46,464 nucleotides of DNA from positions 71,133 to 117,596 of the forward strand of contig CALHZT010000202.1 in the NCBI GenBank assembly GCA_938040995.1, written 5' to 3'. Both the position numbers and the translations under genes were made by a program. Positions 1 through 36,960 of the stretch are shown piece after piece. The first letter of the stretch is position 1; each line of letters begins with the position of its first letter. Below the pieces are notes generated by a model that saw nothing but the letters and a program-made list of their open reading frames with translations, was not told where the DNA came from and searched no databases. The stretch is from an uncultured Pirellulaceae bacterium. Its GTDB lineage: Bacteria; Planctomycetota; Planctomycetia; Pirellulales; Pirellulaceae.

Positions 1-349
1 CTCGATAGGCTCCCTTGATCGACGCGGCTGCGGAAAATTTACCGGAATGAGCGATCTTTTCGGTTGCGGTCGCCGAGACCTCGGCCCCGCCAGTGTTGAG
101 GATGCCACCGCCCGGGTATTTGTGCGCTGGTGATTGCCACTGGTGCAGATTGCCCTGCTCGTGATCGGCAGACCAGACGATTGAGTCGCGAATATCACGA
201 GGCAATGACTCGATCCACTGCGCCGAAGCAGTCGATGTAAGGGCAAACAGAGCGACACCGACCGAAAGAGCTATGGAGCGGCAATGCGTAAGCCGCCGGC
301 GCCTGCGCATCGCAATCAGGTTTCGGTCATCTGAGCTGGGCAAGGTCAT
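1..349 (-). CDS. Secreted protein, N-terminal part only (possibly polysaccharide-lyase-like), cut by window edge
   Basis: The minus-strand frame opens with ATG at 349-347 and stays open to base 1, about 116 residues. An arginine-rich start (MRRRRRLTHCR) is followed by a hydrophobic stretch (ALSVGVALFALTSTASA), a convincing signal peptide, so the mature protein should be exported. The mature part starts QWIESLPRD and has IVWSADHEQGNLHQW and HSGKFSA, a pattern I associate with jelly-roll polysaccharide lyases of the heparin-lyase-I type; this is weak because only the N-terminus is present. Its ATG overlaps the TGA of the amidotransferase gene by four bases (ATGA), so it is probably co-translated as the last visible gene of the exopolysaccharide operon. 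A lyase here could trim or release the polymer, which is inference. Confidence 0.6.
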   Translation of the reverse strand, partial: MTLPSSDDRNLIAMRRRRRLTHCRSIALSVGVALFALTSTASAQWIESLPRDIRDSIVWSADHEQGNLHQWQSPAHKYPGGGILNTGGAEVSATATEKIAHSGKFSAAASIKGAYR

Positions 350-3363: not shown

Positions 3364-3578
3364 ATCGTTAGATGTTTTGTTTGCTGTCTGTAATCGTTTG
3401 CCTGTCGCATCGCCTACGGCGGAATTTCGCAGTCCCGGAACTTTTTACGAAGGCCAGTGCTACGAATCCAATCTCTCGCGGCGGGAGAGTGGAAGTCTGA
3501 ACGTCCGACGGTATCGCGTTGCCGTTCCTCGTGCTGCGTGTTTTCGGTAGCAGTGTCGTCTGGTCGGCAAAGAATCCA

Positions 3579-5728: not shown

Positions 5729-6879
5729 CGCGATACCAGCTCCTGAGACGAAGACGGGCTGGAATCTGGACCACCGTTGACGTGCATCGGCAAAGGGCAC
5801 GTCAGCTTTTCATGCAGCTCCAGCCATTTCGCCGTGTGCTGCATGCCGGTCTGCAAATCGACTCGAGATGCAAAACCCAGCTTTTCGGAAATCTTGTCGG
5901 TGGAAAGGAAAAACTGACGCTGATAAAGATCGTTGAGCTCCGTAGCCGATGGAGTCGCGTTCAGCTCGCCCTTGACCTTCTTCATGATTTTGCTGGCCAG
6001 TCCGCCCTTTAGATAAATCTCCATCAACTGGTCTTCAAAGCGATCGACCAGTCCATATGCCATCGCACCGACAGCGTCCATGATCTTCGTACGCAACCCG
6101 GATTTCGTCGCCGAAATGGTCGTCAGTGGCGGTAAGCCAAGTACGTCGTTGAACTGCTCGAAGTAGTCGTTCCACGTGACCCGGTCGGGGCCATTCAAAT
6201 TGAAGGTTTCGCCCGCCGCCGCAGGATTCGACAGGCAAGCCAGAATGGCGCCGACGACATCGTCTACATAGACCAGATTGGCAAGCCCGTTCCGGTCGGC
6301 GAACAGGCCCCACTTTCCGGACTGTAACCGCTCAGCCACGTCAATCGACCATGACTTGCCGAAGGGCCCATAGATCAACGACGGTCGGAGAATCGTGACG
6401 GGCAAGCCACGCTCACGAAATTCACAGCAGACCTGCTCGGCTTCGATCTTGCAGTTCTTGTAGAGACAGTTTTCCTTCGTGTCCGTCGGACTGTCTTCAG
6501 CAATCTCGCCGGCGGTTGCTGTATCGTAAACTTCGGCCGAGCTGAGAAAAACGAACTGTTCGATGCCTTCGTCGACGGCGGCTTGAAGCAGGTTGCGCGT
6601 GCCACCCACAATCGAATCGCGATCGTCCGTATACGCACAGTGCACGATTGCTTCGACGTCCTTGACTGCGGCTCGGACATCATCCTCGTTGCAAATGTCG
6701 CAAACAACGACTTCTGTTGCCTTGCGACCCGGTCGTGCTGCTCGCGTCCAGCCGCGAATCGTGCCAATCGCAGTCGCAAATCCGGATAATTGCATGGCTT
6801 CGACGACGCGACCGCCTACAAAGCCGGAAGCACCGGTGACCAGAATACGTCGGGAGTTGTTTTTCATCTCAGGCACCAT
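5725..6879 (-). CDS. NAD-dependent epimerase/dehydratase (extended SDR)
   Basis: A 384-aa extended SDR enzyme. The NAD motif VTGASGFVGGR is near the N-terminus, SSAEVYD supplies the Ser and YKNCK the Tyr-x3-Lys pair; RPSLIYGP and YVDDVV are typical of epimerases and dehydratases acting on nucleotide sugars. I place the start at 6879 because GGAAGGA sits 8 bases upstream; ATGs at 6903 and 6867 are alternatives. The start overlaps the stop of the flippase-oxidoreductase fusion gene by about 11 bases, and its own stop overlaps the next gene. A C-terminal extension of roughly 80 residues beyond the SDR core is unassigned. The substrate is unknown. Confidence 0.85.
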   Translation of the reverse strand: MVPEMKNNSRRILVTGASGFVGGRVVEAMQLSGFATAIGTIRGWTRAARPGRKATEVVVCDICNEDDVRAAVKDVEAIVHCAYTDDRDSIVGGTRNLLQAAVDEGIEQFVFLSSAEVYDTATAGEIAEDSPTDTKENCLYKNCKIEAEQVCCEFRERGLPVTILRPSLIYGPFGKSWSIDVAERLQSGKWGLFADRNGLANLVYVDDVVGAILACLSNPAAAGETFNLNGPDRVTWNDYFEQFNDVLGLPPLTTISATKSGLRTKIMDAVGAMAYGLVDRFEDQLMEIYLKGGLASKIMKKVKGELNATPSATELNDLYQRQFFLSTDKISEKLGFASRVDLQTGMQHTAKWLELHEKLTCPLPMHVNGGPDSSPSSSQELVSR

Positions 6880-9409
6880 GAACTGGTTCCTTCCAAATTG
6901 CATTCCAGCTCATATCGTAGAGCCGGGCTTTTTCGTAAGCCGCTTCAAGTAACTCAATCGTGGCCAGCGTACTTTCGCCAGAAACGAAGGGCACGCCACT
7001 TCCACTGACGGAAGCGACCAGATTGTCGATCAGCGGATGGGCAAAGTCGGTGTACTTCTGAAAGGCACCGGCAGGGCAGTTGTATTTCTTGCGGCGGCCA
7101 TTCTTGAATTGCACCACCACGCTGGACCAGTTCTCTGCGCCCGATTCGATCACGCCCTTGGTGCCTTCGATGCGGAAACCATTCATCAAACGTCCCAGTC
7201 GGCTGACCTTGATCGTGATGTCACACGACTGATGTTTGAGTTTCACCGTGGCCAGCGCTTCGGGCCCACCGTCCGCATCGTTTTCGGATGAGACGAGCTC
7301 GGGCCTGGCGTCAATCCAGTACAGCACCGAGTCCAAAAGGTGCACGCCCGTATCGGACCATGCGCCTCGGGCATCTGGGCGGAAGTGGTGCGGGGAAGCC
7401 GCGGGCCAGTCGAATTCCACACCATCCTGATAGTCGATGGACACGAGATCGCCGAGGACTCCCTCCGCAATCAGCTCGCGAATCTTCTGATACGCCGGGA
7501 AGAAACGCCGTGTCTGGTTCACCAGCAGGTAGGCGTTGTTGGCTCGGGCACAGTTGATCAGATCCCGCGCGTCCGCGATTTCTTCAGTCAACGGCTTTTC
7601 GCACAGCACGTGGATGCCGCGTTCCAGGAACCATCGCGAAATCGAATGGTGGCTGGTAGGAGGCGTCGCAACTATCACCGCATCGACTTTGCCTTCCAGT
7701 TGCTTAAAGTCACCGCACACTTCGCTGGCGTTGAACTTGTCTGCGAGGACCTGAGCACGCTCGGTGTTCAGGTCAGCCAGCACAATACCGTCGCGCGTGT
7801 GCTTGTTGCATGCCAGTGCGGGCAAATGGTAGCACTCGGCGATGGCCCCGCAGCCAATCACGCCGACTCGGATATTTTTCATATCAGTTTTGACTCCATC
7901 GCCTTTCATGAGAAGTTTGAGTAATTCCTTGTCGCTCCGGTGAATGCTGCCGGTGATCCACAGCAGCGGTACATACACCGCAACACTGGTGCCGACCAGC
8001 AAAGGCCACGAAGCGTCGCGAAGAAGGTAAGCCGTGGCGCCGACGCCCGTCGCTGCCAGCGCCAGTCGGGCAAAGACAATTCCCATCTTGGCGATTTGCG
8101 CCGGGGGCAGCAGGTAGGCGAAGTAACAGACCATCGCTACCAGTCCGCTGAGCACTGTTCCGGCTGCCGCACCCACCGCGCCGTAGCGACTGACTAACAT
8201 GTAAGTCGCGATCACGTTAATGAACAGGCTCACCGCGGCAACATTCATCGACTTGCGCTGCTTGCCCTGGGCAAACAGGGCATGACTGAGGAACGGGTTC
8301 ACAAATTCTGCAAACAACGTCCAGATCAACACTCGCAGGATCGGCACGGCTTCAGCGTACTCCGCGGTGAACAGCATCTGCACCAGTCGATCCGCGAGAA
8401 TCACGATGGCGATCGCCGCCGGGATCGTGACGAGCGCCATTGCACGAATCGTCTCACGACAGAGGATGTGGAACTGATCGCGTGATTTGCTATAAAGCCG
8501 CGACATCACTGGAAAAACAGCCGTCGTGTAGCTCTTTGCGAACACACTGCCCAGCCGAACAAGCTTCCACGCCGCACTGTACAGTCCAACGGCGACTTCA
8601 CCGGAAATAAACGACAACACCAGCACGTCGAGATTCGTGTAAATCGTGGCCATCCAGTTTTCGGCTGCGAAGGTTCGCCAACGTTTGAAAAATCCCCATG
8701 CCGACTGGAACGAAAAACCAAACTGGAACGGCGTGACGCGCTGCAGGCCCTTCCAGTAGGCCACGAGCAATACCGATCGGGCGATCGCGAGCGCCCAGAT
8801 CAATTCGACGAACCCAAACCCGGCCATTAACAGGCCAAAGCTCAGGACGAGACGCACAGCCGCTTCCAGGGTCGCACCGCCGGTGACGAACTCGGCGCGC
8901 TCCTTCGTGACAAAGAAGGCTTCGAGGATGACACACCATGCTGCCGGAAAGAGAGCCAGGCATGCGATTCCCATCGCCTGAATCGTGTCAGGAGAGTAAT
9001 TGAACAGTTTGCCGAACGGCAACACGGCCAACGGTGCCAGGCAGCATAGCAGCGTTCCCATTACCAGAGCCGAGCTAAGCAGCTGCTTCAGGCGGTCGGG
9101 ACGTCTGGCCAAGTCGCGAGTCAGCAGGATGCCAATGGCTGTGGCCGACAAACTGAGAAACAACTCGAAGTAAAACAGGGCAATGGAGTACTTGCCGAAG
9201 CCTTCCACACCGAGCAGCGCCGCACAATACAACGCAAACAGAAAACTGCCGACCATTCGGACGACCATTCCGGCCACGAGCATCATGGTATTCTTGGACG
9301 TGCGCAGCGCCGAACCAGAATCCGAATGCGACTCGACAGCCGCCGCGTCATTCTGGTTAACGCCGTTGGTCGCGTCGCCGTTGGTCGCGTTGTCTTTTCT
9401 ATCGTCCAT
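6869..9409 (-). CDS. Wzx-like polysaccharide flippase fused in frame to a Gfo/Idh/MocA oxidoreductase
   Basis: A single 846-codon frame carries two complete proteins. Residues 1 to about 500 are a MOP/Wzx flippase: a polar N-terminus, then about a dozen hydrophobic segments beginning MMLVAGMVVRMVGSFLFAL, expected to flip the lipid-linked repeat unit across the inner membrane. Residues 510-846 are a full-length MocA-type oxidoreductase with NAD motif VGVIGCGAIAE, the EKPL motif, and a C-terminal domain with DTGVHLLDSVLYW. The linker is LLKLLMKGDGVKTD. Internal in-frame ATGs at 7909 and 7882 could start the enzyme separately; GGAG lies 11 bases before the second. These functions are normally separate genes. 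The fusion could be real, an internally initiated second product, or the result of a lost stop. Confidence 0.85.
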   Translation of the reverse strand: MDDRKDNATNGDATNGVNQNDAAAVESHSDSGSALRTSKNTMMLVAGMVVRMVGSFLFALYCAALLGVEGFGKYSIALFYFELFLSLSATAIGILLTRDLARRPDRLKQLLSSALVMGTLLCCLAPLAVLPFGKLFNYSPDTIQAMGIACLALFPAAWCVILEAFFVTKERAEFVTGGATLEAAVRLVLSFGLLMAGFGFVELIWALAIARSVLLVAYWKGLQRVTPFQFGFSFQSAWGFFKRWRTFAAENWMATIYTNLDVLVLSFISGEVAVGLYSAAWKLVRLGSVFAKSYTTAVFPVMSRLYSKSRDQFHILCRETIRAMALVTIPAAIAIVILADRLVQMLFTAEYAEAVPILRVLIWTLFAEFVNPFLSHALFAQGKQRKSMNVAAVSLFINVIATYMLVSRYGAVGAAAGTVLSGLVAMVCYFAYLLPPAQIAKMGIVFARLALAATGVGATAYLLRDASWPLLVGTSVAVYVPLLWITGSIHRSDKELLKLLMKGDGVKTDMKNIRVGVIGCGAIAECYHLPALACNKHTRDGIVLADLNTERAQVLADKFNASEVCGDFKQLEGKVDAVIVATPPTSHHSISRWFLERGIHVLCEKPLTEEIADARDLINCARANNAYLLVNQTRRFFPAYQKIRELIAEGVLGDLVSIDYQDGVEFDWPAASPHHFRPDARGAWSDTGVHLLDSVLYWIDARPELVSSENDADGGPEALATVKLKHQSCDITIKVSRLGRLMNGFRIEGTKGVIESGAENWSSVVVQFKNGRRKKYNCPAGAFQKYTDFAHPLIDNLVASVSGSGVPFVSGESTLATIELLEAAYEKARLYDMSWNAIWKEPVHGA

Positions 9410-10784
9410 AGTTCACCCCCCCAAGGCGACGGTCAGCGGAGGGCTGGTGACTGATTCGGTAGATCGCCGCGGTGATGCCGAGCAATACCCATAGCAATTG
9501 CACCTGCGTTCGGGAATTGAAAACATCAACCAGCAAGTGGGTCATGTGCCCGAGCAAGGCGGCGGTGAATCCCAGTCCCAGCGTCGCGAGGACAGGTGAC
9601 GACTGGTTCCTCCACGCTGAGAGGCCGTGTCGAATGCCGTTTCCAAGGATCGCCAGAAAGCCAAGGAGTCCGATGATTCCGGTTTCGATCCAGACAAGCA
9701 GGTACTTGCAGTGAACCGTATAGTACCACTCGGAGCGAAATGCCGCCTGGTTCGCATTGTCTTCACAGGCAAGGTGACAATTGCCTGATCCGTGGCCGAA
9801 CAGAGGCGCTTCCTTAATGGTATCCATGGCAATCATGGCCAGGTGGGCTCGAGCCGAAGCGGATCCGCCATCGCCATTCGCGACGCGGCCGACAATTACA
9901 AGAAACAATGGATAAACAGCCAACAAGGCAAATGCCGCTGCTGCCATGATCGACCATCTCGGCAACCACCCCCGTCGCCCCAGCATCCAGCCAATCATCA
10001 TCGCACCGAAAAAGGCGGTAATAATTGCGCCTCGGGTTTGAGTACAGAGGATCCCCAGCATCCCGAATGCAGTGCAAAAGAGCCCCAGCCTGGTCAATAA
10101 CCTGTTTCGTTGGCACATCGTGAGCGCGAGGACGGGAACCCACATGATCGCCATGGCGCTGCCTGCCAACACCGGCGAGTGCATGGTGCCGCCGGGGCGG
10201 CCATCTTCCCAAACATTCACCATGATCGGCCCAAAATAGTAATCCGTACCAGGCTCACCGAGCGCTTTCGCCACAAAAACGATCAACGCCTGAATGCACA
10301 TCGCCGATGCCAGAATCCATGTGCAGCGCATCACATCCGGAACAGTTTTGATCCGGTTGGCCAGGTAGAAGAAGATCGCGAAGGCTTGTACAAGCACGGC
10401 CACATCGAACACAGTCAACATGGGAACAGAGGCTGCGAGCATACTGGATGCCACGATCGCGATGTAAATAAGCATTGGCGGATTCCAGAGAAATCCTGGT
10501 TTCCGCACAACACCCTTGAGCATGGAGTGACCAATCCACGCTGCGTAGAGGTAGCCGAGACAAATCGTGAAGACCGAAATGTTGATTCCTGCGACTGCGC
10601 CAAATTCCGCATCCCGCTCATGGAACATCAGGTATGAGTCGATCTGCAGGTTGATTTCATTCACGCCGACAGCCAGCGCCGCCCATTCGTGCCAACGCAA
10701 ACCGGAAGCATTCGCGGCGGATCGCGTACGCGTGGGAAATGCGGAGCTGCCCGCAGCAGAAAATGTCGTCGAAGTCGCGCTCAT
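9399..10784 (-). CDS. O-antigen ligase/polymerase family membrane protein (Wzy-like)
   Basis: A polytopic membrane protein of 461 aa. After a polar N-terminus of about 35 residues, about ten to twelve hydrophobic segments follow, with one large polar loop containing LFGHGSGNCHLACED. That loop matches the Wzy_C/WaaL pattern, in which a His/Gly-rich periplasmic loop is functional. The probable role is polymerisation of flipped repeat units at the periplasmic face, or their ligation to an acceptor. It lies between the chain-length protein and the flippase, the classical Wzx/Wzy/Wzz arrangement. Its stop overlaps the flippase start by 11 bases. A ligase role cannot be separated from a polymerase role by sequence. 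Confidence 0.85.
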   Translation of the reverse strand: MSATSTTFSAAGSSAFPTRTRSAANASGLRWHEWAALAVGVNEINLQIDSYLMFHERDAEFGAVAGINISVFTICLGYLYAAWIGHSMLKGVVRKPGFLWNPPMLIYIAIVASSMLAASVPMLTVFDVAVLVQAFAIFFYLANRIKTVPDVMRCTWILASAMCIQALIVFVAKALGEPGTDYYFGPIMVNVWEDGRPGGTMHSPVLAGSAMAIMWVPVLALTMCQRNRLLTRLGLFCTAFGMLGILCTQTRGAIITAFFGAMMIGWMLGRRGWLPRWSIMAAAAFALLAVYPLFLVIVGRVANGDGGSASARAHLAMIAMDTIKEAPLFGHGSGNCHLACEDNANQAAFRSEWYYTVHCKYLLVWIETGIIGLLGFLAILGNGIRHGLSAWRNQSSPVLATLGLGFTAALLGHMTHLLVDVFNSRTQVQLLWVLLGITAAIYRISHQPSADRRLGGVNYGR

Positions 10785-10793
10785 GTGTAGTTT

Positions 10794-12974
10794 CTACGAG
10801 ACCAGACGCTCGATCCACTTTGGGATGGCGCGGTGCGTCTTGTTGAGAACCACGGCAGCGACAGGGACACCGCGCGAGTCCAGTCGACGCAACGTACGAC
10901 CGAGATCCACCGAGGATGACTTTTCAGCCTCTGCAACCACAACCACACAATCCAGAAGATGTACATCCAGGCTGCTATTCCGCCCGGCTTGTCGGGACAA
11001 ATCGACAACGGTTAACTCATTCTCCACCCGCATCCAATGACGCAATTCTTCGCGATGCTCGTGCAAGTCATAACTCACACAATCTTCTGGCAGCAGTTGC
11101 TTCAGTGAGCCATTATTCAGGTAACTCACGTGGCTATCGATGCTCTTTCTTGTATCAGTGAGCAATTGCCCCGCTGGATTTTCCTTATTGGGACGCTCAT
11201 TCGAATGATCGCCTGCTTTTGGACGACTTCCCACCGAAGCATCGGTTCCAGTCGTAGGGCCGGGCGAAACCAGAAGCGTCTCTATTCCTTCTGCATCGGC
11301 ATGTACTGCCAAAGCCGCTGCGATAGAAGTAACGCCGACTCCGTTCGTCAGTCCCGTAACGCCTACCACGAGTCCGTCTCTTGATAATTGACGCATCGAG
11401 ACGATCTCGTGCAGTACTTCCGCCAATGGACGTCGCATTACCGGTGCTCGCCATCGGCCACCCTTGTTTGAGTGGAATCGTCTGAACGTACCGGGGCGAG
11501 AAGGCATATCGACAACAAGCGTATCTTGCCCCAGGTCGCCAAGTTGATGCGTCGACCGAATCGTCTTCGAGTTCATTTCCCGCAGAACAATTAAGCCCAC
11601 TCCCACCATGAATCCCATTCCTGCGAAACCTGCCGCAAGAATTTTTTTGTTCGGGGACGCAGCCCGTTCGACGAACGATGCTGGCTGAACAACACTCAAG
11701 TTGGATATCCGCCTTGCCTGCAATTCGTCGATCAGTCGTGCTTCTTCCTGCTTTGAGCGAAGGTTGTAAAGCCGATCCTGAGTGACGCCAATGCTACGCT
11801 CGACATCGTCAAGTCTCAGCTGAAAGTCCATCAACTCACGAAGTTCCGACTGAATCCGTCGCTTCTGGTTCAGGAGCTGTTTCGCTTTTGCTCCACCTTT
11901 GGCAATTGACCGGCTGGCTGGAATCGACAGCGACGCTTGACGTACTTGGGAATCCTTTTCAGGGTTTTGCTCAAATTGCATCGCTCTGACTGCCTGGCGT
12001 GTCTCCTCCAGTTCACGGCGAAGTCGCTGAAAATCAGGATGCCTCTCGGTAACCGTCGAACCGAGCTCGACTTCCTGTAATTCAAGGTCGTTCAATCGAC
12101 CTCGAACGGAGGTTTCGAGATTCCCCAAAGTCGACAGTAAAGCGTCTCGCTTCGAGTCGATCGATTCGATATCGCGTTCTTTTAGCATCTCCGTGCGGCG
12201 ATCAAGCAGCTTGTTCAACTGCTCTTCCGATTCGGCAGCCTGCGACGCAAAGAATTCCTGCGAACCTTCGGTTCGTCCAGTACGCAAGTGCACGCTCAGG
12301 TAGTTGTCCACAACCGCTTGCGCGGTCGCCTGTGCCATTTCGGGAGATCGGGAAGACGCCTTTACGATCACGACCGTTGATTTTTTACGCGCGTAGATGC
12401 CGATCGAATCTTTCAGTTTCATGATCGACAATTCTCTGTCGCTCAGTTCGTCTTTCAGTCTTGCGGCAACGAGAAAATGATAGACGCCATCGGAGATCGA
12501 GTTTTTGACCAAGCCGACGAGCTTCTCGAGGTAGGAAGGATCGCTTTCTTGTTTGGAAAGATAGCCGTCAAGGATCGGGCCCGTTCCCAGTTGCTCCACC
12601 ACTTTCCCCATTAAGGTACGGCTGCCCATCACCTCCAACACAGAATTGACTTCTTCCTCCTGTGTTTTCTGCAGCAACATGGTTTCGCTCGTCGTTGCTG
12701 TCGGATCAAGCGATACACTCTCTCGACCAACTTTGATGAGCAGTCGGGCTTCTGATTCATAACTGCGAGGCCATATCAGAAGCGCCACCCAGCTGAGTGC
12801 CATTCCGCCCAGAACACCGAGTACAAGCGATCTCTTGTTGGCGAAAAACGGCTCAACGAGAGCAAGAAGCGAGAAGGAAACCGCTCGGTCCATCGCAGCA
12901 CCAGACGACCGGTCGTCCTCCAGTGACTGGAGTCCGATTCGACCGGTCCGTTCAACTAATTGGGAATCATCCAC
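10794..12974 (-). CDS. Wzz-type polysaccharide co-polymerase with degenerate C-terminal BY-kinase domain
   Basis: A 726-aa inner-membrane protein. It has a polar N-terminus, a first transmembrane segment (LGVLGGMALSWVALLIWP), a large periplasmic Wzz/GNVR region rich in predicted coiled coil (about residues 70-430), a second transmembrane segment (AAGFAGMGFMVGVGLIVL), and a cytoplasmic domain from about residue 520 with the layout of a bacterial tyrosine kinase. The Walker A position reads TGLTNGVGVTS, with Val where the essential Lys should be; the Walker A-prime position reads LLVSPGP without its Asp; and no C-terminal tyrosine cluster is present. The chain-length role is therefore likely but kinase activity is not. 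The next gene starts 9 bases downstream. Confidence 0.88.
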   Translation of the reverse strand: MDDSQLVERTGRIGLQSLEDDRSSGAAMDRAVSFSLLALVEPFFANKRSLVLGVLGGMALSWVALLIWPRSYESEARLLIKVGRESVSLDPTATTSETMLLQKTQEEEVNSVLEVMGSRTLMGKVVEQLGTGPILDGYLSKQESDPSYLEKLVGLVKNSISDGVYHFLVAARLKDELSDRELSIMKLKDSIGIYARKKSTVVIVKASSRSPEMAQATAQAVVDNYLSVHLRTGRTEGSQEFFASQAAESEEQLNKLLDRRTEMLKERDIESIDSKRDALLSTLGNLETSVRGRLNDLELQEVELGSTVTERHPDFQRLRRELEETRQAVRAMQFEQNPEKDSQVRQASLSIPASRSIAKGGAKAKQLLNQKRRIQSELRELMDFQLRLDDVERSIGVTQDRLYNLRSKQEEARLIDELQARRISNLSVVQPASFVERAASPNKKILAAGFAGMGFMVGVGLIVLREMNSKTIRSTHQLGDLGQDTLVVDMPSRPGTFRRFHSNKGGRWRAPVMRRPLAEVLHEIVSMRQLSRDGLVVGVTGLTNGVGVTSIAAALAVHADAEGIETLLVSPGPTTGTDASVGSRPKAGDHSNERPNKENPAGQLLTDTRKSIDSHVSYLNNGSLKQLLPEDCVSYDLHEHREELRHWMRVENELTVVDLSRQAGRNSSLDVHLLDCVVVVAEAEKSSSVDLGRTLRRLDSRGVPVAAVVLNKTHRAIPKWIERLVS

Positions 12975-13017
12975 GATACTCGCCTCGAAAAAGTTCTATC
13001 CGACAACGTCCGGAATA

Positions 13018-14154
13018 CTATTTACTGCCTTCGAAAAACGACTTGATGACTTCGGCAACACGTTGGACTTTGGCGTGCGTCATTTCTGGGCACATCGGCA
13101 ACGAGACGATCTCATCAGCCAGTTGACTGGTCACAGGCAACCCGGCTGGATGGCACGTCGCATTGACCATCGGCGAAGCTGTACTCAAAGGCCGTGGATA
13201 GTGGATCCCCGACTGGACACCATGGTTGGCGAGATGCTCTCGCAAATCGTCTCGACGTAAATGCCTTGCAACAAAGAGGTGATAGACGTGACGCACATCT
13301 TCCCGCTCTGCTGGCAGAATCAGTTCGGTATCGGCAAGTGCTTCGCGGTACCACCCGGCGACTTGACGTCGTTTCTCAGTCCAGGCTTCGATGTACTTCA
13401 TTTTGGTTAGCAAGACAGCGGCTTGAACGGTATCAAGGCGACAGTTGAATCCAAGCAGGTCGTGACGGTTCTTTACCTTCTGTCCATAGTTTCGCAGCAG
13501 CTGAAGCCGCTCTGCCAATTCCGGATCGTTTGTCGTTGCACAGCCACCATCCCCGAATGCACCAAGGTTCTTTCCCGGGTAAAAGCTGAAGCAACCGATG
13601 TCGCCCATCGAACCGCACCGTCGCCCCCGATACTCGGCGCCGTGCGCCTGAGCTGAATCTTCAATGACGCGAAGGTTGTGTCGCTTGGCAATATCAAGAA
13701 TTTCATCCATCGGTGCCGGTTGGCCGTACAGATGGACTGGAATGATCGCCTTGGTACGACTGGTGATCGCCGCTTCGATCAGGGCGGGGTCGATATTAAA
13801 ATCAGCCGGGTTGATGTCAACGAAAACTGCCTCGGCGCCGGTGTAGCCGACTGCGAACGCGGTTGCCGCGAATGAATTACCAGCCGTAATGACTTCGTCG
13901 CCGGGGCCTACGTCGATGGCCCGTAACGCCATGTGCAAGGCATCGGTGCCGTTCGAGAGACCCACGGCAAAATCTGCGGAGCAATAGTCCGCGAACTCCT
14001 TTTCGAACAGGTGAACTTCTTCGCCAAGGATATAGCGGGCGCCTGAAATTACATCGGCGATGCGCGCGAGGACTTCTTCCTGAATGGATCGTGACTGAGC
14101 CACCAGATCCATGAAAGGGATGGTGTCGATTACTTGTTGACTAGCTTCTGCCAT
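13018..14154 (-). CDS. wbpE: DegT/DnrJ/EryC1/StrS sugar aminotransferase (WbpE-like)
   Basis: A PLP-dependent sugar aminotransferase of 378 aa, starting [17 protein letters not shown]. The start at 14154 is preferred over an open frame reaching 14247, because family members begin just before the IPFMDL motif and a GAAAG/AGAAG stretch precedes it. The Schiff-base Lys is in [13 protein letters not shown] (about residue 195); EDSAQAHGA holds the Asp that contacts the pyridine nitrogen; GTDALHMAL is the substrate/PLP loop. With the WbpB- and WbpD-like neighbours it should aminate the 3-keto group of UDP-2-acetamido-3-keto-glucuronate using glutamate. The paralogue could instead act on another keto sugar, but the three-gene grouping argues for this pathway. 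Confidence 0.9.
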
Positions 14155-14250
14155 TGGTGCTTCTTTCTTCTCCCAAACTGAAAAAACCGGGTGCATGCGG
14201 TTTGTTGATATACCGGAAATACTTTCAAAGGCCGTGAAGGGCCACATAAA

Positions 14251-14862
14251 CTACGCGGGTACGGATGTTTTGGATTGCGTCCAGGTTGCGACAATTGCGG
14301 CACGATCTTCCGGTGTTTGGCCACAATGAGAACAAGTCGATTTCGTATATTTTTCCGCCAACTTTTGACCGCATTGGCAGACGTCACTGACATGTCGGGC
14401 TGGAACACCGACAACCAGAGCGAACGGTGCAACATTTCGGCTTACCAGCGCGGCTGCCCCGATCATTGAAAAAGGGCCGAGGCTGACGCCCGCGCGAATG
14501 GTGGCAGCGGCTCCGATCGAGCAACCATGGCCGACGCGCGTTGTCGCCAACCAGTTCTCTTTACGGGAGTATCGCTCCTGTGCTGACGGCATGCGTGGTG
14601 AACGTGGGTGCAAGTCGTTGGTAAAAGTGGCTCGAGGTCCGATAAAAGCTCCGTCCTCGATTACTACTCCATCCCAAATGCAGACTTGATTCTTTATCGT
14701 TACGTTATCGCCGACGATCGCACCGCCTTCGACGAACGAATGGTCCCCGACCTGCACATTCCTTCCCAGTCGCGCACCGGACATCACGTGAGCAAACGCC
14801 CACACGCGGGTGCCTTCTCCAATTTCGTCGCTTTCGACTAGTGCTGTGGGATGCCCGCACAT
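14251..14862 (-). CDS. wbpD: Left-handed beta-helix N-acetyltransferase (WbpD/WlbB-like) with a C-terminal zinc-ribbon-like tail
   Basis: A 203-aa hexapeptide-repeat acyltransferase, expected to acetylate the 3-amino group of UDP-2-acetamido-3-amino-glucuronate with acetyl-CoA. Repeats such as IGEGTRVWAF, LGRNVQVGDH, VGDNVTIKNQ and IGAAATIRAG form the beta-helix, and FTNDLHPRS is the loop typical of the WbpD/WlbB group. After the helix ends (VVGVPARHVSD) come C162-x-C164 and C177-x2-C180, a small four-cysteine knuckle that resembles a zinc ribbon, followed by a short polar tail. The gene lies two bases after the WbpB-like stop, which fits one operon. The enzyme assignment is strong by family and context; zinc binding is inferred. 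Confidence 0.9.
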   Translation of the reverse strand: MCGHPTALVESDEIGEGTRVWAFAHVMSGARLGRNVQVGDHSFVEGGAIVGDNVTIKNQVCIWDGVVIEDGAFIGPRATFTNDLHPRSPRMPSAQERYSRKENWLATTRVGHGCSIGAAATIRAGVSLGPFSMIGAAALVSRNVAPFALVVGVPARHVSDVCQCGQKLAEKYTKSTCSHCGQTPEDRAAIVATWTQSKTSVPA

Positions 14863-14864
14863 GG

Positions 14865-15902
14865 TTAGACCTTTTCAGCCAGCAAGGATTTCGCGGACTG
14901 CACAGCCTTCGGTGCGCCGTTGTCCCAAATCGATTCGTTGGCAGCTTCGAGTACCTGAACCACTTCAAGGCCATTCACACCACTCGTGGTCGGTTTCACG
15001 TTTTCCACGATGCATCGAATGAAGTCGCTACACTCGGCTTTTAATGGTTCGCGTTCCTGAACGAATGGGCTGTAGCTGCCACCGTAGCGACATGCAATCT
15101 GGAATTCCGCGAAACTGCCGGTCGTCGGCGGAGCCGTAATTCCCTTGTCGTAGATCTTGATCTTTTCCTGAGCCAGGTCGTCGTAGATCGCCATCTTGCG
15201 GTCACCGACAATAGTCAACGTCCGCTCTTTTCTGGGATCCAGCCAACTGCAGTGGACCATTCCCATACGATTTCCCGGGAATTGCATGCTGAGATTGCAA
15301 ACGTCGTGAATCTTCTCGTTCAGATGAGCCAGGCCACACGCTGTGACACGCTCTGGTTGCTCACCCATGAGGTAGTTGATCATCGAGATGTCATGAGGCG
15401 CGAGATCATAAAGCGAGCTCACATCGTGGCGGATCGGTCCAAGATTCAGCCGGCGACTGCTTATATAGCTAATTCGCCCCAATTCGCCGCTCACGACGAT
15501 TTCACGCAGTTTCTTGACCGGATCGGAATGCAGGAATACGTGACCGACGAACAGCGTCAGGTCTTTGCTGTCCGCGAGAGCGATCAGCTCCCGGCACTGT
15601 ACCGAAGTTTCGGCAAGCGGCTTTTCAACGAACGTGTGAATGCCCCGTTCCAGCGCCTTGCTGGCGAACTCGAAGTGTGTCGACGTTGGAGTCGCAATTA
15701 CCAACGCATCGACGATATTTCGCTCAAGCATGGCGTCGAAATTTTCGAACGGAAACACACTTGGAAACCTGTCCTTGATACGGATCAGGCTGTCATAGCT
15801 CTGATCACATACGGCTGTCACTTTGCAGTCGTTCAATTCGGAAAAACAGCGTACGAGATTCGGACCCCAATATCCCAGTCCAAGGATGCCAACATTAATC
15901 AT
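14865..15902 (-). CDS. wbpB: Gfo/Idh/MocA oxidoreductase, WbpB/WlbA-like UDP-GlcNAc-uronate 3-dehydrogenase
   Basis: A 345-aa NAD-dependent oxidoreductase. The N-terminus MINVGILGLGYWGPNL contains the glycine-rich NAD motif in the form usual for WbpB/WlbA, followed by ATPTSTHFEFA and the EKPLAE motif (catalytic Lys). The C-terminal domain has LAPHDISMINYLMGE with the conserved His. In the established pathway this enzyme oxidises C3 of UDP-2-acetamido-2-deoxy-D-glucuronate, before the aminotransferase and acetyltransferase encoded just downstream. The pathway also needs a UDP-GlcNAc 6-dehydrogenase (WbpA), which is not in this window. Confidence 0.9.
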   Translation of the reverse strand: MINVGILGLGYWGPNLVRCFSELNDCKVTAVCDQSYDSLIRIKDRFPSVFPFENFDAMLERNIVDALVIATPTSTHFEFASKALERGIHTFVEKPLAETSVQCRELIALADSKDLTLFVGHVFLHSDPVKKLREIVVSGELGRISYISSRRLNLGPIRHDVSSLYDLAPHDISMINYLMGEQPERVTACGLAHLNEKIHDVCNLSMQFPGNRMGMVHCSWLDPRKERTLTIVGDRKMAIYDDLAQEKIKIYDKGITAPPTTGSFAEFQIACRYGGSYSPFVQEREPLKAECSDFIRCIVENVKPTTSGVNGLEVVQVLEAANESIWDNGAPKAVQSAKSLLAEKV

Positions 15903-15980
15903 GATGCGTTCTCTTTGTGCAAAACTGCCCCACTCAGATGATTGGTAGGCAGCAATATGAAATAAAAACCTGAATGCGCT

Positions 15981-16697
15981 CTATTCGCCCGAGTCGAGCA
16001 CAACCCAAACTGTGCGGGCAAGAATGCAGAGATCGAGCCACACGGATCGTTCCCTGATATATTTTAGATCCAGACCGACCATCTCCGTGAATGACAGATC
16101 GTTCTTGCCGCTCACTTGCCAAAGTCCTGTCATACCAGGTGCGACTTCGAATCGTCGACGCTGGGCAGGTTCGTAGTCGTTCCAGTCGAGAACGTCGGGA
16201 CGAGGTCCAACGAGGCTCATCGAACCAAACAGCACATTGAAAAGTTGAGGCAGCTCGTCAATTGCATGCCCTCGCAGGAACGCTCCACCGGTAATGACTG
16301 AGTCGCCAAAGTCCGGCTTTTCCATTGCCGAGTCGGAACCTTTGAGGCCTGCCACATACTGCCGGTGGTTCGCCGCGCTATGCGAAGTAGCGATCGTTCG
16401 AAACTTATAAATGGTGAAGTACTCACCCATCTTTCCTAAACGGTTTTGTTGGTAGATCGGTGACTCACCACTAACAACCCGAATGAAGATCGCCACGAAA
16501 GCGAGAACTGGCGAGAGCAAACCAATGAGAAACATCGAACCAACGATGTCGAAGCTGCGCTTCCACATCGGCATTGGACGTTTTATCAAATGAGATTTGG
16601 ATACAGGCTGTGAATCGACACTGTTGTCGAAACTCTCGAACGAATCGCTTCGTTCCAACTGCACTGTATCTGTCGATTTGTAGTCTAGCTTCGTCAA
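15981..16697 (-). CDS. Undecaprenyl-phosphate sugar phosphotransferase (bacterial sugar transferase family)
   Basis: A 238-aa monotopic phosphoglycosyltransferase that should start each repeat unit by moving a sugar-1-phosphate from a UDP-sugar to undecaprenyl phosphate. After a 45-residue polar leader comes the KRSFDIVGS motif and one membrane segment (FLIGLLSPVLAFVAIFI), then YQQNRLG, YKFRT, the catalytic DELPQL pair, SLVGPRPD and PGMTGLWQVSG. It lacks the multi-span N-terminus of WcaJ and so is the short PglC/PssY-like type. It is the first gene of the minus-strand locus, with a 0.5-kb AT-richer region upstream, so its start probably marks the operon promoter. The sugar is unknown. Confidence 0.92.
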   Translation of the reverse strand: MTKLDYKSTDTVQLERSDSFESFDNSVDSQPVSKSHLIKRPMPMWKRSFDIVGSMFLIGLLSPVLAFVAIFIRVVSGESPIYQQNRLGKMGEYFTIYKFRTIATSHSAANHRQYVAGLKGSDSAMEKPDFGDSVITGGAFLRGHAIDELPQLFNVLFGSMSLVGPRPDVLDWNDYEPAQRRRFEVAPGMTGLWQVSGKNDLSFTEMVGLDLKYIRERSVWLDLCILARTVWVVLDSGE

Positions 16698-27784: not shown

Positions 27785-27820
27785 CACTCTGTTTCGCCAC
27801 TTCACTCCGTTTCGCCACTT
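27785..27820. repeat. 18-bp tandem duplication spanning a stop codon
   Basis: CACTCTGTTTCGCCACTT (27785-27802) is followed at once by CACTCCGTTTCGCCACTT (27803-27820), one mismatch apart. On the minus strand the upstream unit encodes the last residues of the sulfotransferase fusion and its TGA; the downstream unit repeats this after the stop. Confidence 0.85.
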
Positions 27821-30507
27821 TTCTGCCGGTGCAACTCTGGCTTGACGGCGGCAATCATGCGGTCGTGATTGGGCAACCGGTCAACCCCGAGGAATTGTAC
27901 GATCCGGGCAATGTGGTCCTCTGGAGCGCTAACGAGGTTGCCAAATTCCACCGTGATGAAATCGATATTCTCCTGACGTTCGAGCTGATGAAGAATATTC
28001 TGTCGGTGCTTGTCAAGCAACTCAGCCGTTTCTTCGTTGGAACGTTCGGCACCTTCGGTGCCCAGTCGTTCCATCATCTTTTCCTGTGAAACGACGATTT
28101 CTTCGACAGGCCGCAACATGAAGATGATTTTGTATTGGTGCCTTAGGGGCAAATGAGGAAGCAGCATCGAAATGACTTTTGCAACATGATCATCCAGCAA
28201 TGGATCGTCGAGAACGCCTGGATCGGTCGGCAGCTTCTTGATCTTCTCCCATTCCAGATAGCCTTCCGGATTATCGATGTCCGCCTTTCGTTCCTCGTCG
28301 GTTACTGGATGCAATCCTCCCAGCTTCAACATTTGCATCATCAGGGAAGTGCCCGACCTTGGCAGGCCAGAGACAAACACGAGAGTCCGCCCGGATTTGT
28401 CTTTTTTGCCTTGCTTCGGGCGCTCGCGCATCAGGGTTTCGCGTCGTGTCTTCATATCCGGGATGTCCGGAATTGGAAAAAGTTGACGCGCGCGATCCTT
28501 CGATTTTTGCTTCTCTTGTTTGGAGATCCCCAGCGATGCGTCGAACTCGACGCGATGCTTTTCAGCTTTTTCGGGATTATTGAGGAACCGGGAATTCAGA
28601 CGACTTAGCCAGCGATGGGCATTATGGGAGTTTGGATGAATGTGAAGGCAAGTTTCGAACGCCTGGGCCGCTCGCTCATGATTTCCCAATTGGGCAAGGG
28701 CTATCCCGAGCGAATAGTGGGCACTTGGCAAATGATGAATCAGGCGGACCGCATCCAGGGCTGAATTCGCGGCCGCTTCGAAATTCCTGGCCCTCAGGAA
28801 TGCACGTGCCAAACCCTGGTGTGCAAAAGCATTCTCAGGAGTGCACTCCAGGCACTTGTTGAACGCTTCGATTGCATTTTCTGTTTGACGCATGGACATG
28901 TAGACACGCCCTAACTGGAGTTGCAACTGAGGTTGATTTGAATTCCGTTTCAGGACATTCCTGAATGCTTCAGCCGCCTCGTCGCGGTTCCCCAGTTGCA
29001 GCAGGCATCGACCCTGAAACTGCTCAAGATTGAGAGGCATACCTCGTCCTCCCGGAAATGCTTTGTCGATCAGGTTCAGGCATTGCTGGTAGTACCCACA
29101 CAGAAAGTAGCAGTGAGCAAGCCGCACGATGAAACGTAATTCCCAGGGGTCGCCTGCGAGAAGTTCTTCAAAGATCGGTTTTGCCAAATCAGCCCGATCT
29201 GTCGCCGCATAGACCCGAGCCAGATTGTATTGCAGTTCAATTCCTGCGCTTCGGTTGGCTTTTATCAGATCATCGCCGTGGTCATCAACATAACCAAGCG
29301 CGACAAACTGCTTTCGCAAATCGTCGGACTGTTCCTCTTCAAGCTCTGTGCCAGGAGGGTGCATTCCTGCATCGCCCGGTCGATCTTCCCAACTGGGGAT
29401 CGTCTCAACATGGACAGTATCCTCAAACGCAGAGATGAGCGGATTGCCCTTCATGTCTCTACCGATCGGCAGACCCAGGTAAGCAAGAATTGTTGGCGTA
29501 ATATCAATCAGGTTTGCGCCATAAATGCGCTCGTCTTTTTTGATGCCTGGTCCTGCCATCGCAATCATGCCAAACTCGCGATGCCAGTCGGCCGGACCCG
29601 CCGGCTCATTGGAAACGGCAATCGGTCGAGCGTCCCCAGAAAGAAAGCCATGGTCGGAGCAGACGATGACCAAAGCATCTTCCCCCGCCAACTTCCACAG
29701 CACCTCAAGGATCATGTCATGAAAACGATAAACTCCCGCGATGACTTCTTTGTAATTCTCAAAGTCCTCATCCGACACCCTTGGCATCTTGGGGGCCTGA
29801 TATTGCATGAATGAATGACAAAAGTGATCGATTGAATCGAAATAGATCGCACTGAAGTCCCAATCGGCAGTTTTCATCGTTTCGACAGCTGCCGCTTGAA
29901 TCGTCGCACATTCCGAAAGCAGTTTGACGAAGGTACCGAGGCGGTTGTTCTTTGAGAGATCGATGTCGGAGATATTCGGTATGAAAGGCCCGATGTCATT
30001 CGCGCCGAGTTCGTCTGCGAACACACGGCATTTGGATATCTGATCTGCAAACGATTCCGGATGGACCACCCCTGGTGGAACGACGACGGTTCCGTCGACC
30101 TGCCTTTTCAGATGTTTGACATTGGGAGTGACAATGCGCCCGTTGACGGGTTCAGCTGGGTGACCGGCCCACCATCCGACGACATTGGATCGATATCCTT
30201 CCTGATTCAGGATATTCCATATCGCCTTTGTTTTGCGAGAAAGACTCGTAACGGGGCGCATCCCTTTTCCGGATGGCATTGGTTCCATAAAGCCCAGAAT
30301 GCCGTGCTCATCCGGTAGCTTTCCGGTCCCGATCGTATTCCAGAGCATGGGTGAAAAAATTGGCTCCATCGTCGCCAAATTCCCCATGACGCCGTTGTTG
30401 ATTAACCTCTCAAGCGTGGGCATCATCCCCTGTTCGAGCAACGGATTGATATGCTGCCAATCGGCCGCATCCCAACCCAGTAACAAGACTCGTTTCTTTT
30501 TCGACAT
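27802..30507 (-). CDS. Three-part protein: alkaline-phosphatase-superfamily phosphodiesterase, TPR repeats, sulfotransferase
   Basis: A 901-aa protein without a signal peptide. Residues 1-375 are a nucleotide-pyrophosphatase/phosphodiesterase domain: GWDAADW (Asp13), FSPMLWNTIGTGK with Ser52 at the nucleophile position, DSIDHFCH (Asp224, His228), SDHGF (Asp285, His286) and WHREFG (His309) give a plausible two-metal site. Residues about 425-650 are TPR repeats. Residues about 705-890 are a sulfotransferase with SGLPRSGTS (713-721), the loop that binds the 5'-phosphosulfate of PAPS. Combining a phosphate/sulfate ester hydrolase with a sulfotransferase is unusual; it could act on sulfated glycans or on the PAPS cycle. 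The substrate is unknown. It is a single gene with gaps on both sides. Confidence 0.9.
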   Translation of the reverse strand: MSKKKRVLLLGWDAADWQHINPLLEQGMMPTLERLINNGVMGNLATMEPIFSPMLWNTIGTGKLPDEHGILGFMEPMPSGKGMRPVTSLSRKTKAIWNILNQEGYRSNVVGWWAGHPAEPVNGRIVTPNVKHLKRQVDGTVVVPPGVVHPESFADQISKCRVFADELGANDIGPFIPNISDIDLSKNNRLGTFVKLLSECATIQAAAVETMKTADWDFSAIYFDSIDHFCHSFMQYQAPKMPRVSDEDFENYKEVIAGVYRFHDMILEVLWKLAGEDALVIVCSDHGFLSGDARPIAVSNEPAGPADWHREFGMIAMAGPGIKKDERIYGANLIDITPTILAYLGLPIGRDMKGNPLISAFEDTVHVETIPSWEDRPGDAGMHPPGTELEEEQSDDLRKQFVALGYVDDHGDDLIKANRSAGIELQYNLARVYAATDRADLAKPIFEELLAGDPWELRFIVRLAHCYFLCGYYQQCLNLIDKAFPGGRGMPLNLEQFQGRCLLQLGNRDEAAEAFRNVLKRNSNQPQLQLQLGRVYMSMRQTENAIEAFNKCLECTPENAFAHQGLARAFLRARNFEAAANSALDAVRLIHHLPSAHYSLGIALAQLGNHERAAQAFETCLHIHPNSHNAHRWLSRLNSRFLNNPEKAEKHRVEFDASLGISKQEKQKSKDRARQLFPIPDIPDMKTRRETLMRERPKQGKKDKSGRTLVFVSGLPRSGTSLMMQMLKLGGLHPVTDEERKADIDNPEGYLEWEKIKKLPTDPGVLDDPLLDDHVAKVISMLLPHLPLRHQYKIIFMLRPVEEIVVSQEKMMERLGTEGAERSNEETAELLDKHRQNILHQLERQENIDFITVEFGNLVSAPEDHIARIVQFLGVDRLPNHDRMIAAVKPELHRQKSGETE

Positions 30508-30703: not shown

Positions 30704-31363
30704 CTAGCTTTTGCGTCGTCGCCGAGCAGCCAGACCAACTCCACCCAGTGCTAGCAGGGCGAGCGAGGAGGGCTCGGGAATGACGGCCCCGAATGCAACG
30801 CCGGGAGTTTTTTCCCATTGGAAGGACAACGTCATCGAGCCGCCTTGTCCCGGGACAAGGTCGTCAAGGAAGATGGCGCCGAAGTGCGTCATGCCACCAA
30901 TGTCAAACTGAAGGCCACCTTGGTTTGGTGCAAGATTAGGAAACGTCCCGAATGTGGTCGGGCCATAGGTGACGCCCAATGCGGCGGAACCCAAAGCGCT
31001 GGTTCCTGCGAACGAGTTCGAGAATACGCCGAGGTACTGTCGATTGCCGAGGTAGGTAGCGTCCGCAGCGTCCGGGCCGACAAGATTTCCACCGAGTCCC
31101 GAAATGAGGAACGCTTCACTCACGCTTGTTGAGTTGTCGACCACGCTCAAGTTGAAATCGAGAACGCCGTCACCGTCGATATCGACGTCTACCGAGTTCG
31201 ATGCGGTTGCGTCCAAAGTCACAGTTGTCGTGGAGTCGCAAATCTGTGCTTCCGCCATGTTGACGCCACCAGTCGTTACTGCAACGCCCGTCAATGCGTA
31301 AGTCGCGATTTTCTTACTGAGGGTGCTATTCTTTTGGATTTTACGGGTTTTCTTCAGTTTCAT
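30704..31363 (-). CDS. PEP-CTERM sorting-domain protein
   Basis: A 219-aa exported protein. The start is the ATG at 31363 with AAGGAG about 10 bases upstream; a GTG three codons earlier is too close to that site. It has a basic N-terminus, a hydrophobic export segment (IATYALTGVAVTTGGVNMAEA), a beta-rich body with DVDIDGDGVLDF, an Asp-rich possible calcium loop, and a C-terminal VIPEPSSLALLALGG-type hydrophobic stretch ending in ARRRRKS. That is the tripartite PEP-CTERM signal processed by exosortase, often linked to exopolysaccharide loci. No exosortase gene is in the window. The body has no recognised domain; two hairpins follow the stop. Confidence 0.9.
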   Translation of the reverse strand: MKLKKTRKIQKNSTLSKKIATYALTGVAVTTGGVNMAEAQICDSTTTVTLDATASNSVDVDIDGDGVLDFNLSVVDNSTSVSEAFLISGLGGNLVGPDAADATYLGNRQYLGVFSNSFAGTSALGSAALGVTYGPTTFGTFPNLAPNQGGLQFDIGGMTHFGAIFLDDLVPGQGGSMTLSFQWEKTPGVAFGAVIPEPSSLALLALGGVGLAARRRRKS

Positions 31364-31683
31364 TAGACTCACTCTCCTTATATGGATTCAATTTCAGATG
31401 GGGCAAAAAAAATGCCAACACTTCCGGGGTTTGCGGCCGAATCAACGGCTAAACCACGAAAGTCTTGGCATGGGAATTTTCGAAGGTGTTTCAACAGTCA
31501 TTGGCGTTATCTTCTCGTCTCGTTCGAAAAAGGCGGCAGCATCCGCATCCGCATCCGGATTCCACGTAACCATTACAATAACTTGATAATTCCACATTGC
31601 AATCAATACGGGAAAAAAATTGCAAATAGTTCAGAAATCACCGGAAACTGGGGGGTGTTGCAAAAGACTTCTACTGACGCGCC
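31364..31683. promoter_or_regulatory. Gap upstream of the PEP-CTERM gene
   Basis: About 320 bases with no supported gene. It should contain the promoter and leader of the PEP-CTERM gene (minus strand). A GCATCC unit is repeated three times in tandem at 31539-31556. Several poly-A/T runs occur; no clear terminator for the acyl-CoA synthetase gene was found. Confidence 0.4.
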
Positions 31684-35088: not shown

Positions 35089-36960
35089 TCACCGCGATAA
35101 CACGGCAGTTGGCCTCGTCATCTGTCTCGTTCGTCGTCCTGTTGCGAACAATGACAGGCCACCAAGCAAGCCAAGCAGCCAGCCTGCAGGTTCGGGCACG
35201 ACGGAACAGGACGGATGGCTGTTGCCAAAGTTGTCCTGCCAGATCGTAAAATCAGCCGCATCGACGATCCCATTGCCGTTCCCGTCGGCAGCGAGATTGA
35301 CGGTCGATCCGAAATCACTTTGGAAAATCGTCAAGTCGTCATTGTCCACGTCGCCGTCCATGTCAAAGTCGCCGTCGAGCGGGGCACCCACGACGCTGCC
35401 GGTAAAAGTCAACGATAGCGGCTGGGCGAGCGCTCCAATCAAATCTTCATCGGAAACGTTAAGTAAGTAGCTGGCGGTGTACTGACCTGCACAATTCGTC
35501 GACAGCGAAACTGAGAACGGCGCGTTCGATCCACCGGCGATGGCATTGTCACCTGTCAATTCTGCGAGATCAGTCGCGAAGCGAGTGACGTCTCCAAAAC
35601 CGCTAAAGCTGTCGAGTTCGAGATCTGCTGTCAACGTGGGATCCGCACCGAGATTGAACAAGCTGAAATCCAGGGTAGAAGAGGCTTCGCCAAGCATGAC
35701 CGCACCAAAATCCAGAGTCAGCGCGTTCTCAAAGCTGCCTGCTGTCCATGATGGAGTCGCATGATCGATGACCTGGAGTTCAAGATTGATGACGTCGTTC
35801 CCGTCGTTGGCGCCGCGTCCTGTTCCACCCGAAGTCGTCACGTCAAGATTGTCGATGGTCACGGTGCCTGGATAAAGACCGCGAACGGTCGTTGACGCGT
35901 CCAGCCCCACGTTGATTGTTGTCGAATCCGTGCCGCCTGTTCGAAAGTTGAGGTGACTGCCAGTCAACGAGCTTGTTGCGGCACCGGTGGTTGTGATCTC
36001 GTAGTAGGTTCCGTCATTGCCTGATTTGTTCAGTGTGACTGCCTGAGAGAGCGACGCGGTTTCTCCAACGAAAACTCGCTGGGTGAAATTCAGACTCGAC
36101 GCGCCATCGTTTGCGACTGTCGTGCCCGCCAGGCCAATGCGACTGTCATTGTTCTGGTCAACGAAGACGCTCCAGACATACTCCGGGCGATCGACGAACG
36201 GATTGCGGTTACCCTGAAAGCTGTCATGAACGACATCGTTGCGTCGAAGCTCAAAATTGTCTGGCGCGGTTTGATAGTGCCATTCGATCATTCGATCGAG
36301 GCTGCCAAGTCGCGGAGAGCCCGGCGTACCGTTTGCCAGCTCCAGGTTGCTGGTCGCGCTATCGGATCCGTCGTATCGCACCGCAGCGTAAAACATCTGT
36401 CGGGCGACCATCCCGGCATCCGCGTCGCCGGGGTACCAGACAGTGGGTCCACCGTCTGAAACAGTACCGAACGGTTGGCCAAACGCGCCGCCAAAATGTA
36501 AGTTGCCGCGGTCCGAATTCACCCCCGGATCGGACGGGCGAAGCATGTGTAAATCAGAATTGTCCGGCCCGGATGCGTTGACACCCAACGCCCTCGGCCA
36601 GGTGTGTTCGCGATTCCACGAGTTCCCATTGTCCCAACCCGGAACGCTTCCGTTCAGATTTGAGACGTCCAGCGAGACGCGATCGTAAATCAGGATAATA
36701 TTGTCAGCGTCATTCGGATCCCGATCGGTAATCTGCAGATTGCTGCGGGCGGCGTCGTAAGACAGGACCGTGTGGTTATCGATGATGTTGTGCAGTTGCT
36801 GCTTGAGGGTGGATCCCGACCCGGTGGCCGAGTTGTAATATCCGGGGGGAGGATCATATTGCGCGTTCGCCGAATGCGGAAGAACCACGACGAACAATAC
36901 TAGCGCAGCCAGCCACGACGATGCGAAGGTCTCGCGATTGGAAAGGTGACTCGACCTCAT
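35089..36960 (-). CDS. Secreted endonuclease I with dockerin-like repeats and PEP-CTERM signal
   Basis: A 623-aa secreted nuclease. Signal peptide: WLAALVLFVVVLPHSANA. Residues about 38-265 are an endonuclease I domain of the Vvn/EndA type, with the metal and catalytic motif NREHTWP (116-122), DLHMLRPSDPGVNSDRGNLH and VWYPGD. A middle beta-sandwich region (about 290-520) follows. Then two EF-hand-like calcium loops, DFDMDGDVDNDDL and DGNGNGIVDAADF, form a dockerin-type module. The C-terminus VVPEPAGWLLGLLGGLSLFA plus an Arg-rich tail is a PEP-CTERM sorting signal. It probably digests extracellular DNA at the cell surface. AGGTGG lies just before the ATG. Confidence 0.92.
   Translation of the reverse strand: MRSSHLSNRETFASSWLAALVLFVVVLPHSANAQYDPPPGYYNSATGSGSTLKQQLHNIIDNHTVLSYDAARSNLQITDRDPNDADNIILIYDRVSLDVSNLNGSVPGWDNGNSWNREHTWPRALGVNASGPDNSDLHMLRPSDPGVNSDRGNLHFGGAFGQPFGTVSDGGPTVWYPGDADAGMVARQMFYAAVRYDGSDSATSNLELANGTPGSPRLGSLDRMIEWHYQTAPDNFELRRNDVVHDSFQGNRNPFVDRPEYVWSVFVDQNNDSRIGLAGTTVANDGASSLNFTQRVFVGETASLSQAVTLNKSGNDGTYYEITTTGAATSSLTGSHLNFRTGGTDSTTINVGLDASTTVRGLYPGTVTIDNLDVTTSGGTGRGANDGNDVINLELQVIDHATPSWTAGSFENALTLDFGAVMLGEASSTLDFSLFNLGADPTLTADLELDSFSGFGDVTRFATDLAELTGDNAIAGGSNAPFSVSLSTNCAGQYTASYLLNVSDEDLIGALAQPLSLTFTGSVVGAPLDGDFDMDGDVDNDDLTIFQSDFGSTVNLAADGNGNGIVDAADFTIWQDNFGNSHPSCSVVPEPAGWLLGLLGGLSLFATGRRTRQMTRPTAVLSR

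Follow-up and report, generated by a model that had tools for sequence, protein, structure and literature searches.

A phosphodiesterase-TPR-sulfotransferase fusion of many bacterial phyla and its link to a family of secreted, leader-bearing proteins

The window (the whole stretch of DNA that was analyzed, 46,464 nucleotides) carries on its minus strand a gene in which a domain of the alkaline phosphatase (AP) superfamily, a TPR superhelix, and a PAPS-type sulfotransferase are encoded in a single frame, as a first-pass annotation of the sequence had proposed. Its immediate neighbor, 196 bp upstream and in the same direction, codes for a small secreted protein, hereafter the partner. The features discussed are the following:

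27802..30507, minus strand: AP-superfamily phosphodiesterase-TPR-sulfotransferase fusion (ATG start, 901 aa, no internal stop)
29338..30507, minus strand: AP-superfamily/type I phosphodiesterase domain, residues 1-390 (PF01663, invariance of the site, NPP/ENPP1 fold matches)
28489..29268, minus strand: TPR superhelix, residues ~414-673 (Pfam TPR models, helices in the AlphaFold2 model, fold matches to OGT, SPINDLY, and MamA TPRs)
27814..28392, minus strand: PAPS-type sulfotransferase domain, residues ~706-898 (PF13469/PF00685, profile matches)
28345..28374, minus strand: predicted 5'-phosphosulfate-binding loop VSGLPRSGTS, residues 712-721 (conserved P-loop)
28087..28113, minus strand: predicted 3'-phosphate-binding motif R799...S807 (invariant in 74 sequences, aligned to SULTs)
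30704..31372, minus strand: partner, a secreted PEP-CTERM protein of 222 aa (core profile, TIGR02595)
31247..31363, minus strand: conserved N-terminal leader of the partner, SKKIATYALTG...AEA, with leader Tyr25 (a leader Tyr occurs in 34 of 40 family members)
30710..30781, minus strand: PEP-CTERM sorting tail of the partner (PF07589; TIGR02595 at 28.7 bits, cut-off 16)
346-16697: exopolysaccharide locus (asparagine synthase, glycosyltransferases, epimerases, O-antigen ligase, aminotransferase, hexapeptide transferase, sugar transferase)
6869-9409: flippase fused to a GFO/IDH/MocA oxidoreductase, within the exopolysaccharide locus
10794-12974: 726 aa protein without Pfam match, within the exopolysaccharide locus
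35089-36960: protein with an Endonuclease I domain (PF04231) and a long extension at the C-terminus; a matrixin-like protein profile also matches it, more weakly

Pfam places PF01663 (Phosphodiest) at residues 7-292 of the fusion (E = 5.5e-22; 79.2 bits against a cut-off of 23), TPR repeats at approximately residues 430-640, and PF13469 (Sulfotransfer_3; E = 4.1e-11) together with PF00685 at residues ~710-876. The AlphaFold2 model, computed from 74 aligned homologues, has a mean pLDDT of 92.4 and a pTM of 0.78. Searched with Foldseek, it retrieved NPP/ENPP1 and sulfamidase, and its TPR part resembles the TPRs of O-GlcNAc transferase (OGT)/SPINDLY and of MamA; despite this likeness, no GT41 domain is among the Pfam matches of the fusion. 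The profile of the sulfotransferase domain matched solved SULT and tyrosylprotein sulfotransferases. Neither a signal peptide nor a transmembrane segment is predicted, and since no membrane helix stands out in a simple hydropathy scan, the fusion is probably cytosolic.

The active sites are strongly conserved. The AP domain possesses the two-metal ligands (D, D, H, D, H, H) and the Ser/Thr nucleophile of NPP-type phosphodiesterases (PF01663), here D13, S52, D227, H231, D285, H286, and H309. Across 74 full-length homologues all are invariant except D13, whose single exception is a gap in a row with a truncated start. The nucleophile lies in the context S52-P-M-L-W in all six sequences compared, with S52, P53, and W56 invariant in the 74, and a by-eye comparison of spacing with the NPP motif leads us to assume that S52 corresponds to the NPP nucleophile. 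A phosphodiesterase-like activity of this domain is likely. In the sulfotransferase domain, residues G714, P716, R717, and G719-S721 of the P-loop G714-x-P-R-x-G-T-S721 are invariant in the same alignment, as are R799 and S807, which align with the 3'-phosphate motif of SULTs; from these motifs, binding of PAPS and transfer of sulfate are predicted. The domain also has an invariant set of its own (D737, R740, D743, N746, G749, E752, and K777), and the alignment contains no invariant His that could represent the catalytic His of SULTs. Such a His is not a requirement in all PAPS sulfotransferases, and D743 and E752 are candidate catalytic acids in its place. The intact metal site and the PAPS-type sulfotransferase of the first-pass annotation are thereby both borne out, and inactivity of the domains, which it had named as a possible refutation, is ruled out at the sequence level by the catalytic residues kept throughout the homologues.

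The same annotation had asked whether the architecture exists beyond this assembly. We scanned 84,980 species genomes and found full-length homologues in many genera and at least eight phyla; among the matches listed are Planctomycetota, Verrucomicrobiota, Bacteroidota, Chlorobiota, Acidobacteriota, Pseudomonadota, Myxococcota, Nitrospirota, and one cyanobacterium. The source genome itself holds a second full-length copy, with 47% identity, and the genomes of relatives hold one or two. Thus, the fusion is due neither to chance nor to misassembly, and both an assembly chimera and a restriction to the source assembly are ruled out. Literature searches, within the library used, returned no paper on the AP-TPR-sulfotransferase architecture, in line with the earlier suggestion of an undescribed enzyme: the fusion is a real, widely conserved, and hitherto undescribed bacterial enzyme. 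As a separate observation, another sulfotransferase domain is encoded in the source genome at C397:25858-26535, in an open frame of 1116 residues, possibly a different multidomain sulfotransferase.

The two halves of the enzyme are not always fused. In four regions (L057, L076, L091, and L094) and several others, the sulfotransferase is encoded separately, next to an AP-TPR gene. Several regions of one family, f7, show the order PEP-CTERM matrixin-like protease, two partners, AP-TPR gene, DUF1559 gene, and a sulfotransferase gene lies nearby, on one side or the other. In a quick tree, at least two switches between the fusion and separate genes have to be assumed. The adjacency of the separate sulfotransferase gene to the AP-TPR gene in some lineages indicates that the two act together.

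Clustering of the genes neighboring the fusion yielded one recurrent family, the partner family. Its members are secreted proteins, mostly of 200-300 aa, that consist of an N-terminal leader, a core, and a C-terminal sorting tail. The leader has the form [KR]-x-[LWI]-x-x-Y, a pattern present in 58 of 87 partners and in 31 of 11790 other reading frames, and the core is marked by "YGW...DYAY...AG". Leader and core are common to the partners and the tail varies between members: NCBIfam models identify PEP-CTERM, IPTL-CTERM, and type IX tails in test members, and the tails of the remaining partners were assigned by eye and pattern. The gene at 30704-31372 matches the core profile with E ~1e-25 locally and 1.6e-31 in the whole-genome search; it is a divergent member, with FGA instead of YGW and no DYAY. 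Searches with the core gave nothing above cut-off in Pfam and no match among NCBIfam families or PDB sequences, and the structural model of the partner, itself weak, matched no known fold in the PDB. A likeness to the flocculation protein PepA (NF033554) disappeared once the tails were removed. No residue is invariant across all partners. Apart from the leader Tyr, a Tyr near the mature N-terminus occurs in 29 of 40 partners, in many next to an Asp, and these two tyrosines, neither of them universal, are candidate modification sites.

Several further observations concern the surroundings of the partners. The source genome has PEP-CTERM proteins, yet its assembly, 86.5% complete, gave no match to the exosortase family PF09721; a divergent exosortase or a missing contig could account for this. 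In regions of f7 (L042, L051, L163-L167, and L172-L174), the partner pair and the AP-TPR gene are immediately preceded by the gene of a ~500 aa matrixin-like protein (PF00413) that ends in a PEP-CTERM-like tail, a candidate processing protease. Most of seven other regions of relatives (L037-L041, L048, and L050) contain an ASST-like protein (PF05935) with two AP-superfamily proteins of ~700 aa, a multi-TM protein of ~280 aa without Pfam match, and, finally, a sulfotransferase of the type found in the fusion (~195 aa); the partner family is absent from these clusters.

The link between enzyme and partner is well supported. At 60 of 78 loci the fusion has a partner no more than 2.5 kb away, with a median gap of 61 bp, and an adjacent partner is absent at the other 18. 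Of the 60 adjacent partners, 56 are co-directional with the fusion; 30 lie upstream and 30 downstream, a change of side that speaks against synteny alone as the reason. Among 297 genomes from the order of the source bacterium, AP-TPR occurs in 47 and the partner in 54, with 42 genomes holding both, five AP-TPR alone, and 12 the partner alone (Fisher p ~1e-34, for genomes that are relatives rather than independent samples, and with a partner profile derived from neighbors of fusions). The source genome has exactly two partners, one next to each of its two fusions. Among 20 further genomes with the fusion, drawn from many phyla, 18 hold one to four partners each, some without an adjacent one, and a nineteenth (L071) holds one by the local profile; by hand count, 18 of the 34 partners in these 20 genomes adjoin a fusion. 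Moreover, the partner is found in none of the 14 genomes of the order-wide set that hold just the sulfotransferase relative, and it accompanies AP-TPR at three loci (L171, L173, and L174) where the fetched region shows no sulfotransferase. Because the partner tracks AP-TPR more tightly than it does the sulfotransferase, the AP domain may provide the primary step. Co-occurrence with PAPS synthesis is uninformative as a test, since APS kinase, which supplies PAPS, is near-universal in the order (288 of 297 genomes, and the source genome).

We therefore suggest, with a probability of roughly 0.45, that the fusion is a dedicated cytosolic protein-modifying enzyme, the TPR superhelix holding the partner precursor while the sulfotransferase domain sulfates it. 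The suggestion draws on the linkage, the intact active sites, the OGT-like TPR arm, and the presence of one to four partners in tandem for each enzyme gene, a ratio to be expected of substrates. Weighing against it are the lack of any residue invariant across partners, the divergence of the partner in the window, the 18 loci with no partner adjacent, the closer tracking of AP-TPR than of the sulfotransferase, the weak partner model with no known fold, and the occurrence of this sulfotransferase type in partner-free clusters together with membrane AP enzymes and an ASST-like protein. O-GlcNAc transferase and SPINDLY select their protein substrates through TPRs; similarly, the superhelix here would bind the precursor via its conserved leader, its core, or both. 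The C-terminal domain would then move sulfate from PAPS onto the precursor, and the NPP-like N-terminal domain would carry out a second phospho- or sulfo-ester reaction, either on the same substrate or on a nucleotide. Finally, the modified partner would be exported and anchored through whichever type of sorting tail its host uses. A broader proposal, which we put forward tentatively, is that these components make up an unrecognized protein-maturation system of at least eight phyla, in which a bifunctional cytosolic enzyme serves leader-marked surface proteins that follow three sorting routes (exosortase-type PEP-CTERM, IPTL-CTERM, and type IX), possibly by both phospho- and sulfo-transfer. 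If the partner is the substrate, bacteria would have a general route to sulfate or otherwise modify surface proteins, recognized by leader and not by tail. This would give a function to test for surface proteins without Pfam match in Planctomycetota, Verrucomicrobiota, Bacteroidota, and Proteobacteria, and a first biological context for a cytosolic family of the AP superfamily.

Sugars are frequent acceptors of PAPS sulfotransferases, and the enzyme could instead act on a precursor, a sulfated glycan or lipid, that would afterwards be joined to the partner or the cell surface, with the partner as carrier or co-regulated surface protein. The exopolysaccharide locus at 0.3-16.7 kb of the window, with its flippase, O-antigen ligase, glycosyltransferases, and sugar transferase, and a glycosyltransferase at 25673 fit such a role. 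However, it is the partner, and no glycosyltransferase family, that recurs beside the fusion across loci and phyla; leader and core of the partner persist while its tail changes, and OGT-like TPR arms favor protein substrates. We consider this explanation doubtful, and the remodeling of glycans envisaged by the first-pass annotation gives way to protein modification, to which the partner family adjoining the fusion, overlooked by that annotation, points.

Coupling to PAP removal, also considered by the first-pass annotation, is conceivable. It is unlikely, in our judgment, that the AP domain has no role on a protein substrate and is a housekeeping activity directed at PAPS or PAP, clearing or limiting the nucleotide by-product near the sulfotransferase. 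Nucleotide pyrophosphatases are its closest fold in Foldseek, AP-TPR is recurrently fused or adjacent to the sulfotransferase, and the PAPS-synthesis cluster of Pyrococcus includes a type I phosphodiesterase gene, but the PAP phosphatases described belong to the CysQ, DHH, and amidohydrolase superfamilies (PMC8268124). Moreover, the three loci where the partner follows AP-TPR with no sulfotransferase in the fetched region run against such a role. Lastly, a sulfatase opposing the sulfotransferase, which would give the sulfate exchange first imagined for this protein, is highly improbable: the AP superfamily has sulfatases among its members and both sulfamidase and glucosamine sulfatase are among the Foldseek matches, but the formylglycine motif C/S-x-P-x-R of type I sulfatases (PF00884) is absent from the AP domain, which has S52-P-M-L-W, and PF00884 itself scores below cut-off (23.1 versus 25 bits). 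As to co-occurring sulfatase genes, Pfam scans of window genes gave no sulfatase domain above cut-off.

A dedicated partner-modifying enzyme would have a close parallel in the tyrosine sulfation system of Xanthomonas, where, as far as the cited accounts describe it, the sulfotransferase RaxST acts on a 60-residue precursor, RaxX, encoded in the raxX-raxSTAB cluster (PMC6637879, PMC4216712). In both cases a PAPS sulfotransferase gene lies beside a gene for a secreted protein, which here would be the substrate. In contrast to what those accounts describe, the present system combines an AP-TPR-sulfotransferase with partners of 200-300 aa bearing PEP-CTERM, IPTL-CTERM, or type IX tails, and tyrosine sulfation in it is hypothetical. 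With the NPPs (Xac NPP, ENPP1) the AP domain shares the fold, the di-metal ligands, and the position of the nucleophile; it differs in having Ser rather than Thr as nucleophile, in an identity of ~14% to solved structures, and in being a probably cytosolic domain joined to a TPR-sulfotransferase. The P-loop and the 3'-phosphate motif are shared with the SULT and TPST enzymes, whereas the core of the fusion's sulfotransferase is short (~195 aa), shows no invariant His, and carries an invariant set different from theirs. Finally, O-GlcNAc transferase and SPINDLY share with the fusion, by fold matches, the linkage of a cytosolic transferase to a TPR superhelix; in the fusion this transferase is of the PAPS type instead of GT41, and an additional hydrolase of the AP superfamily is joined to it.
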